Assembly: GCF_000968055.1 (NCBI RefSeq) | Contig: NC_022538.1 | Coordinates: 124,001-188,000, forward strand | Origin: Alteracholeplasma palmae J233 | GTDB lineage: Bacteria; Bacillota_I; Bacilli_A; Acholeplasmatales; Acholeplasmataceae | Reading direction: 5' to 3' | DNA length: 64,000 nucleotides | In this document: positions 61,396-64,000 of the stretch, piece after piece | Layout: every line of letters begins with the position of its first letter | Numbering within the stretch: position 1 is the stretch's first letter | The notes under the pieces: model-generated | What the model saw: the letters and a program-made list of their open reading frames with translations, nothing else | Told to the model about the DNA's origin: nothing | Database searches by the model: none | Program-made: the position numbers and the translations under genes

Positions 61396-61465
61396 TAAAT
61401 ATGATAGTTGCTAAGAACATAAATCTTTATAATAGGGATGTAATATGAAACCTAAGGAGAATTTT

Positions 61466-62407
61466 ATGAAAAAAATCTTAGCAGCTTTTCTTTTATTATT
61501 AGGAATAATCACATTGACTGCTTGTACAGTTGAAGAACCATCAAATGGTGGTGGAGATAATGAAACACCTCCAACACAAACAGATTCAGAAATTCAAGGT
61601 TACACAAGAGATAGTTCATCAGGGACAAGAGAAGCGTTCTTTGATATTATAGGACTTCCAAAAACTCATTCAGAAACGACTGTAGCGAAAGTTCAAGAAT
61701 CATCTTCAAATGGAGATATGATTAACAAGGTTAAAAATGATGTTAATGGTATTGGATATATTTCACTTTCATCATTAGATGGTAGTGGACTTAAAGGATT
61801 AAAATTCCAAGGCGTTGAAGCAACAGAAGATAATGTATTAAACAATACATATGAATTGAAAAGACCATTTAACTATATTACAAAAGTATCAGATGAATCA
61901 ACAGAATCAAAATTAGTAGAAGCATTTATCGCATTTATCAACACACAAGAAGGTAAGAAAACAATCCAAGATAATGGTGGGATTGTAGAAATTAAGGCAA
62001 GTGATAAAAAATGGAGCGACATAAAGTCGGAATACACTATCACAACACAAGATAATTCAGCAATTACTATTAAGTTTGGTGGATCAACATCAGTTGAAAA
62101 AATAGCTAAAGCACTAAGTGGACAATTTAAAGCACTAGCAGGAAACTTCCAAGTAGAACATAATCATACTGGATCAGGAGATGCTTATAAGAGAACACAA
62201 GGATCAGAAAAAGATGGAGCTAATGCAGTTCATATCGGATTCTTATCAAGAAACTTTGGTTCAAGTGAAGCAAATAGAGCAGAAAATACATCAGGTATCT
62301 TAGCCTGGGATGCAGTAGTAGCTGTTGTTCATACTAATAATAAATTAACTAATATTAGTGCTTCAAACTTAAAAGCTATTTTCTCAGGAATTAGAAAGAA
62401 TTGGTAA
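61466..62407 (+). CDS. pstS: Phosphate ABC transporter substrate-binding lipoprotein PstS, circularly permuted
   Basis: This 313-residue lipoprotein has an N-terminal signal with the lipobox LTAC, followed by an acidic Gly-rich linker. The order of its halves is reversed. First come the elements that normally form the second half of PstS: RDSSSGTREAF (48-58, normally near residue 140), a SNGDMINKV and GIGYISLSSL region, and RPFNYIT. After residue about 200 come the elements that normally form the first half: IKFGGSTSVEKIAKAL (about 203-218), a HTGSG loop, IGFLSR and, at the very end, NLKAIFSGIRKNW. The protein stops right after NW, where normal PstS continues to the RD-SSGTR motif. AAGGAG precedes the ATG. 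Confidence 0.87.
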   Translation: MKKILAAFLLLLGIITLTACTVEEPSNGGGDNETPPTQTDSEIQGYTRDSSSGTREAFFDIIGLPKTHSETTVAKVQESSSNGDMINKVKNDVNGIGYISLSSLDGSGLKGLKFQGVEATEDNVLNNTYELKRPFNYITKVSDESTESKLVEAFIAFINTQEGKKTIQDNGGIVEIKASDKKWSDIKSEYTITTQDNSAITIKFGGSTSVEKIAKALSGQFKALAGNFQVEHNHTGSGDAYKRTQGSEKDGANAVHIGFLSRNFGSSEANRAENTSGILAWDAVVAVVHTNNKLTNISASNLKAIFSGIRKNW

Positions 62408-62419
62408 AGGTATATAATT

Positions 62420-63367
62420 ATGCAAGAAGAACGATTGGCATTATTTAAGAAAAAAAAGAAAATTACGGATATCGTTGTTAGAAGTATTTTACTTCTAGCA
62501 ACGATTATTTCCGCTTCTATAGTTATCTTAATTGTTATTCAAATTGCAAGCCGCGGACTACGTCCGTTTTTTGCGTTTTATGATTTTGATGGGCCTACAG
62601 GACTTATAAAAGTTAAGTTGAATTTCTTTGAATTTATTTCAGGCACACAGTATATACAACCAGTATATCAAATAGGGTTTATTATTATTAACACCATATT
62701 TACAGTAGCAATTGCAGTATTATTAGCAATACCAATAGCAGTACTAACATCGCTTTATATAGCTAAAATAGCACCTAAGTGGGCTTCTGTTTTACTTACA
62801 ACAGTTGTTGAAATGCTAGCAGCTGTTCCATCTATTATTTATGGGATGTTTGGATCGGGTTTTATCGCCAAAGGCGTACAATCTTTTGCAAGACTATTTG
62901 GTCGAGAAATTGGGTTAAACTCACTTTTAACAACTATTTTAGTATTAATGATTATGGTTTTACCTACAATTACAATGATGAGCACTTTAGCTATTAAAAG
63001 TGTAAGTAAAGAAACAGAGCAAGGTTCACTTGCCTTAGGTGTGACTCCTACTAAGACATATTTTAAAGTTACAATTAAAGCTGCAAAATCAGGTATATTT
63101 GCAGGTATCATTTTAGCAATCGGAAGAGCATTAGGTGAGGCAACAGCAGTTTCTTTAGTATCTGGTAATACTGGAAAAGGACCTAATTTTGATTTATTTG
63201 GTCCAACTAGAACACTGACATCAACAATCTTAAGTGGATTAAAGGAAACTTCAGGATTTGATTATGATGTTAGATTTTCAATTGGACTAGTATTGATTGT
63301 GATCATTTTAGTTTCTAATATAGCGTTAAATTCAGTTAAAAAAAGGATGAGTAGATATGAAAAATAG
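62420..63367 (+). CDS. pstC: Phosphate ABC transporter permease PstC
   Basis: The 315-residue permease has six membrane helices (about 22-45, 90-112, 120-148, 165-185, 213-235 and 285-305). The coupling-loop motif ALGVTPTKTYFKVTIKAA near residue 203 and GRALGEATAVSLVSG near residue 236 are PstC/PstA signatures. With PstA it forms the membrane channel for phosphate import driven by PstB. It starts 12 bp after pstS and overlaps pstA by 11 bp. Confidence 0.95.
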   Translation: MQEERLALFKKKKKITDIVVRSILLLATIISASIVILIVIQIASRGLRPFFAFYDFDGPTGLIKVKLNFFEFISGTQYIQPVYQIGFIIINTIFTVAIAVLLAIPIAVLTSLYIAKIAPKWASVLLTTVVEMLAAVPSIIYGMFGSGFIAKGVQSFARLFGREIGLNSLLTTILVLMIMVLPTITMMSTLAIKSVSKETEQGSLALGVTPTKTYFKVTIKAAKSGIFAGIILAIGRALGEATAVSLVSGNTGKGPNFDLFGPTRTLTSTILSGLKETSGFDYDVRFSIGLVLIVIILVSNIALNSVKKRMSRYEK

Positions 63368-64000
63368 AAAATTATATGATTACTTTGGTAAAACATTAGT
63401 CTATGGAGCATCATTAATATCTGTTGTTGTATTAACACTTATTCTATATTTTGTTTTTAGTAATGGATTACCACTGCTTAATTTTAAGATTATTACAGGA
63501 GATAATGAAGATGTTATTACTAGTTTAAAAACAGAAAAGTTAGATAAAGACTTACTAAAGGACATTGATTATGAGGGAGTTGGATCTAAGAGATATGGCA
63601 TAGCCTTTAAAGAAGAAAATGGTATATTAAGAGTTACTTACATATCTAAAGAGTCACCTTTAAAAAATGTTAATATAGGAGACTATTTAATTGAAGGAAA
63701 TTATGAACTTATAAATGATAAAAAGGAAATGATTCAATATAGTTTAGATATGGGAATTGAAGCTTTTATAGCCATTCTTGATAAGACTGTAGAAATTAAA
63801 AGTTTACCTGTAAATATATTAGGACAAAATAGTGTTGTAAAAACAAACTCTATTTTTAAAACATTTGATATAGAATCTAAAGGGTTTGTGTCTAAAAGAT
63901 ATGGGGTCTCTTTGATAGATGGAAAGAACTTAGAAGGTAGTAATATTATTTTAGTTGAAAAGATCCATCCGGATTCACCTTTTAAAACAACTTCTTTATA
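63357..64000 (+). CDS. pstA: Phosphate ABC transporter permease PstA, N-terminal part with inserted domain (3' end outside window)
   Basis: The frame is open from an ATG at 63357, overlapping pstC by 11 bp, to the window edge (214 codons). It begins with a basic leader and a single membrane helix (about 15-36), then SNGLPLLNFKIITG, which matches the start of PstA before its GG-aIvGT segment. Instead of that segment, at least 165 hydrophilic residues follow. Two similar stretches (about 78-120 and 180-214) carry KRYGIAF/KRYGVSL followed by YISKESPLKNVNIGD or KIHPDSPF, resembling PDZ domains. The remaining permease part should lie beyond the window. The assignment rests on position and the N-terminal motif. 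Confidence 0.75.
   Translation, partial: MKNRKLYDYFGKTLVYGASLISVVVLTLILYFVFSNGLPLLNFKIITGDNEDVITSLKTEKLDKDLLKDIDYEGVGSKRYGIAFKEENGILRVTYISKESPLKNVNIGDYLIEGNYELINDKKEMIQYSLDMGIEAFIAILDKTVEIKSLPVNILGQNSVVKTNSIFKTFDIESKGFVSKRYGVSLIDGKNLEGSNIILVEKIHPDSPFKTTSL

Follow-up and report, generated by a model that had tools for sequence, protein, structure and literature searches.

A duplication model of circular permutation and its predicted intermediates have been described (PMC3320104), and in a plant inhibitor family tandem repeats are read in two ways (PMC2259423). The DNA methyltransferases and saposin/swaposin (PMC3320104), as well as the potato type II inhibitors (PMC2259423), provide examples of duplicated units in tandem, of intermediates and of permuted products. 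As a rule, circular permutation is deduced from end products that lie far apart. Here we describe PstS genes of related bacteria that occupy the same operon position and include the parent order, the permuted order, double and triple tandem genes, a second permutant and what appears to be a reversal. They allow direct tests of the duplication model and of how well a two-lobed binding protein tolerates new termini. PstS is unlike the above families in being a two-lobed transport protein in an operon of its own, and in that a single bacterial order contains two different permutants as well as an apparent reversal. The permutation itself is old, widespread and precedented; the series of tandem, re-cut and reverted genes is the notable part.

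Ordinary PstS proteins, such as those of Clostridium perfringens (4GD5/4Q8R), E. coli (2ABH) and Streptococcus pneumoniae (PstS1, 4EXL), have the same fold, binding motifs and operon partners as the protein studied here. In contrast, their halves are in the opposite order, and only half the chain of proteins such as 4GD5/4Q8R aligns with it sequentially. PstS2 of S. pneumoniae (SP_2084, 4H1X) resembles it in both the permuted order and the full-length fold. Pneumococcal Pst1 and Pst2 have been discussed without mention of permutation (PMC4913102). We found no report of a permuted PstS, 4H1X included, in the open-access literature; a report elsewhere is possible.

The halves of PstS are in swapped order

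The window (the whole stretch of DNA analysed, 64,000 nucleotides), from a small bacterium without a cell wall, contains a pstS gene near its end (Table 1). The ATG at 61466 is preceded by a Shine-Dalgarno-like AAGGAG just upstream, and the stop codon ends at 62407. A second in-frame ATG at 61445 gives a reading of 320 instead of 313 aa, and residue numbers below refer to this 320-aa reading. We call the ordinary C-terminal half A and the ordinary N-terminal half, from GGSTSV to NW, B. Segment A is split into A1, from RD-SSGTR up to LKRPF-NYI, and A2, which comprises the helices after it.

Table 1. Features of the pstS locus in the window.
Feature	Position	Strand	Length or evidence
pstS, circularly permuted, most likely phosphate-binding lipoprotein	61466..62407	+	313 aa plus stop
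Lipoprotein signal peptide, ends at lipobox cysteine (LTAC)	61466..61525	+	sequence; motif kept in relatives
Segment A, ordinary C-terminal half, placed first	61589..61990	+	TIGR02136; PDB 4q8r residues 117-238
A1, subdivision of segment A	about 61589-61879	+	
A2, subdivision of segment A	about 61892-61990	+	
RDSSSGTR, putative phosphate-binding loop, now the N-terminal end of the fold	61607..61630	+	near-invariant in 56 relatives
Linker from old C-terminus to old N-terminus, includes KKWSDIKSEYTITTQDNS	61991..62059	+	junction comparison
Segment B, ordinary N-terminal half (GGSTSV ... NW), placed last	62060..62404	+	PF12849
GGSTSV, putative phosphate-binding motif	62078..62095	+	sequence; conservation in relatives
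pstC, permease	62420..63367	+	TIGR02138, 203 bits, over cut-off
pstA start, with a long additional domain before the permease part	63357..64000	+	TIGR00974 over cut-off; full ORF in L196

The initial annotation had read the phosphate-binding motifs in swapped order behind a lipoprotein signal, with the chain ending at NW. The landmarks agree with this reading: the lipobox LTAC, with its cysteine at 27, precedes segment A, TRDSSSGTR occupies residues 54-62, GGSTSV follows at 212-217, and W320 is the last residue.

When the protein was compared with the PstS family model TIGR02136, it matched in two stretches (E 4.3e-33), the best of which aligned residues 46-178 with model positions 160-291 of 295. 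PF12849 aligned residues 203-320 with model positions 6-123 of 267 (59.2 bits; cut-off 27). The positions of these stretches place the halves in swapped order, which bears out the motif order of the initial annotation. The TIGR02136 score (114.8) was below the curated whole-protein cut-off (206.6) because the protein is permuted and the model is linear; the permutation thus explains why PstS family models under-score such proteins.

Ordinary PstS chains in the PDB matched the protein as two blocks with their order exchanged. Linear local alignment with three ordinary PstS of the same phylum and 4Q8R gave scores of 169-194 and was confined to residues 47-178, whereas alignment with the self-concatenated sequences gave 266-272 over residues 47-320; shuffled controls averaged 37-45 and reached at most 88. 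An end-to-end linear alignment failed for ordinary PstS and was obtained only with the permuted 4H1X. The family match spans most of the model, and the protein aligns in full with concatenated PstS and by half with linear PstS, as a circular permutant does. Since the ordinary B-A order is absent, the protein encoded at 61466-62407 is a permuted relative of PstS. We concluded that it is a circular permutant with the order A1-A2-B instead of B-A1-A2.

The predicted fold is that of PstS with changed connectivity

An AlphaFold model computed from 56 aligned relatives had a mean pLDDT of 94.7 and a pTM of 0.89. The best Foldseek match of this model was 4h1x (E 4.6e-25, TM 0.81/0.87), and VIA-align superposed the two end to end (Z 29.2, 247 residues). 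In contrast, the ordinary PstS structures 4gd5, 4q8r and 1twy were aligned over 129-131 residues (Z 10.3-10.6), all within model residues 1-138. The prediction agrees with the permutation, in that 4h1x matches over the whole length and ordinary PstS over one half, and it indicates that the protein keeps the parental three-dimensional fold with swapped connectivity.

Phmmer also matched the protein linearly with 4H1X (E 1.5e-23). Since 4H1X aligns linearly with a permuted PstS, this solved structure is itself a permutant, and we point it out as such. The two proteins are about 30% identical, and the linker between A and B differs. In trees 4H1X is placed among ordinary PstS together with a small set of permuted ones, and this grouping therefore neither shows nor excludes an origin common to the two proteins.

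The permuted gene heads a complete pst operon

The operon is complete, with the order pstS-pstC-pstA-pstB-phoU followed by a PhoB/PhoR-like pair, and the profiles TIGR02138, TIGR00974, TIGR00972 and TIGR02135 (pstC, pstA, pstB and phoU, respectively) all exceeded their cut-offs. PstS is the sole PBP_like_2 match in the genome (1,554,229 bp, one contig). The binding loops GGST, GSG, SR and RD-SSGTR are kept, and nearly all of their positions are invariant in 56 permuted relatives. After E. coli PstS, we take these loops to be the ligand contacts. From the near-invariant loops and the complete operon it follows naturally that the protein most likely binds phosphate and serves PstCAB. The two lobes would close on phosphate between the four loops and deliver it to PstCAB. 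That the ligand is instead a different oxyanion, or that the protein functions as a sensor alone, is highly unlikely: the TIGR02136 score below the curated cut-off could be read in this way, but such a score is expected for a linear model on a permutant, and both the near-invariance of the loops and the pstCAB-phoU context argue against it.

The covalent path of the chain is changed. The lipid anchor enters the fold before the RD-SSGTR strand, and a linker of about 20 residues bridges the old termini. Judging from E. coli PstS, the new N-terminus presumably lies in the lobe that does not hold the ordinary N-terminus, and the lipid anchor should therefore hold the other lobe.

Two further features of the locus were observed, which L196 follows beyond the window in the same genome. 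The pstA gene encodes 504 aa and runs past the end of the window (L196:4358-5872), and more than 200 residues precede its permease part; this extra region contains a weak PDZ_2 match, and an enlarged pstA is also found in relatives. The gene for a PhoB/PnpR-like response regulator after phoU (L196:7281-7989; contig about 190.3-191.0 kb) seems to be frame-shifted near its start, with MIVYFLEDDVSIHYIIEK in one frame and the remaining receiver in another, as a result of either a sequencing error or a real lesion.

Permuted PstS in related genomes

Matches were found in 72 of the 160 genomes of the order, and 57 of the 160 carried genes with a single permuted unit. The other matching genomes comprised seven with a tandem gene (broken in G018), one with another cut, three with the ordinary order and four with fragments or degraded copies. 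These counts were tallied from the match listing, and the architectures were read in fetched loci. Among the matches listed, the permuted group included Acholeplasma laidlawii, A. granularum, Paracholeplasma vituli, Peloplasma aerotolerans and an Anaeroplasma sp. The linker of the window's gene is typical of this Acholeplasma-type clade, as judged by comparison of the junctions. In the wider class, searched like the phylum within the window's own phylum (contig scan of the best 80 loci), permuted and ordinary PstS are both present, and they occur together in one genome (G215). The permutation is thus not unique to this gene, being the usual order in the bacterial order and having a solved precedent in 4H1X.

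The initial annotation had named an alternative, in which an assembly or frame error fused two genes into the ORF. The chance of this is negligible, because the locus consists of one ORF in a complete operon of a single-contig genome, and dozens of independent genomes have the same order. The swapped order shared by independent genomes refutes such an error or gene fusion as the source of this gene.

Three other loci showed further arrangements. A second, very divergent permuted paralogue (L239, in G027) accompanies the Acholeplasma-type one in the same genome, and L183 (G086) contains two adjacent, separate permuted pstS genes that are unfused. The long-branched permuted PstS of L187 (G347) groups with ordinary ones in the tree and possibly represents another independent permutation.

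Tandem genes and a second permutation

Six genes encode two permuted PstS units behind one lipobox. Their lengths from stop to stop are 593 (G004), 622 (G005), 651 (G009), 678 (G030), 643 (G450) and 664 aa (G451). The G004 gene lies in a single-contig genome, and its copies are 83% identical in DNA. A further tandem gene, in G018, is frame-broken. In an Acholeplasmataceae MAG (L050), three units are encoded in 905 aa and are directly followed by pstC and pstA. In the tree, the copies from one tandem gene group most closely with each other, which means either repeated recent duplication or gene conversion; both agree with these data. In several tandem genes the copies differ by 10-19%, which argues against assembly artefacts.

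The pstS gene of L024 (G017) encodes, in this order, a signal peptide, a lipobox, A2, B and A1; it ends with LKRPFMFVTRY and a stop codon, and pstC begins about 20 bases after this stop. Junction comparison showed that L024 keeps the A2-B linker of the permuted clade. It is sister to the A1-A2-B gene of A. granularum (100/97 on PstS; 100/100 on PstC+PstA), and the two adjoin the window's own operon and the G004 tandem gene in the trees. The A2-B-A1 cut is taken as derived, since it was seen in a single genome whereas dozens have A1-A2-B.

Ordinary-order genes within the permuted clade

In L223 (G448), L224 (G449) and L225 (G431), which come from Anaeroplasma-type relatives, PstS has the order B-A1-A2 and is followed by pstC. 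When these three were scored against the half profiles of the permuted clade, they reached 141-155 bits for B and 126-132 bits for A1, compared with about 42-63 and 46-74 for ordinary PstS of the same phylum. They are nested in the permuted clade on PstS (99/94; 16-row set) and on PstC+PstA (100/100; 10-row set). Further, all three have a C-terminal tail that is similar to the linker between A2 and B in permuted relatives. The motif FDTSK, which permuted relatives have at the mature N-terminus, lies within the B-A1 junction of two of the three and also in the internal junctions of the triple gene L050.

The PstS data by themselves did not reject a placement of L223-L225 outside the permuted clade or at its base (AU p 0.45 and 0.46). 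Because PstS alone did not prove a reversal, we brought in PstC+PstA, on which operons forced outside the clade were rejected (AU p 0.0002, delta lnL 70). The history of PstC+PstA could in principle differ from that of PstS. These results suggest that L223-L225 apparently regained the ordinary order by way of a gene with permuted units in tandem, with the test on PstS alone as the main reservation. That they are instead ancestral relics or transferred ordinary pstS genes is unlikely: it agrees with the unrejected basal position on PstS, whereas the half-profile scores, the nesting in the PstS tree, the rejection of a basal operon on PstC+PstA and the linker-like tail all speak against it.

Route of the permutation

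It is highly likely that permuted PstS works like ordinary PstS, and that its order arose by tandem duplication with loss of the outer parts in a process that continues. We infer phosphate binding, transport and the duplication route as the best explanation of the observed order, fold, operon, tandem genes, other orders and trees. An ordinary pstS would have been duplicated in frame and lost its outer parts to give A1-A2-B, once or a few times. Within a tandem A1-A2-B-A1-A2-B lie the stretches A2-B-A1 and B-A1-A2, so that one kind of intermediate yields both the second permutant and the reversal. Within the bacterial order, the same process would have gone on to produce the double and triple genes, the A2-B-A1 permutant and one apparent reversal. 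Tandem duplication with loss of the outer halves had been proposed in the initial annotation. Within the family this route is well supported by the tandem genes, the second cut and the apparent reversal, whereas for the first, ancient permutation, from the ordinary order to A1-A2-B, we infer it.

Next to duplication, fission and re-fusion is the standard model of circular permutation (PMC3320104), and it would give the same end product. A pstS that was split into two genes and re-fused in the other order is quite unlikely here, since the loci that were read contained no recognisable split pstS, double or triple genes are present in seven genomes (one of them broken) and one further locus, and L024 and L223-L225 lie in clades that also contain tandem genes. 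With tandem duplication as the preferred route, PstS of the Acholeplasmatales and their kin probably undergoes an ongoing, reversible permutation, with double or triple tandem genes as intermediates and at least two further switches, one to A2-B-A1 and one that restored the ordinary order.

A common origin of all permuted PstS was not rejected (AU p 0.37 on PstS and 0.33 on PstC+PstA), and the tests do not distinguish one origin of the permuted order from several (AU p 0.33-0.43). In the sampling within the window's phylum, no tandem gene of ordinary-order units was found. The nearest thing to an ordinary-form duplicate is L164 (G065), which carries two adjacent, separate ordinary pstS genes.
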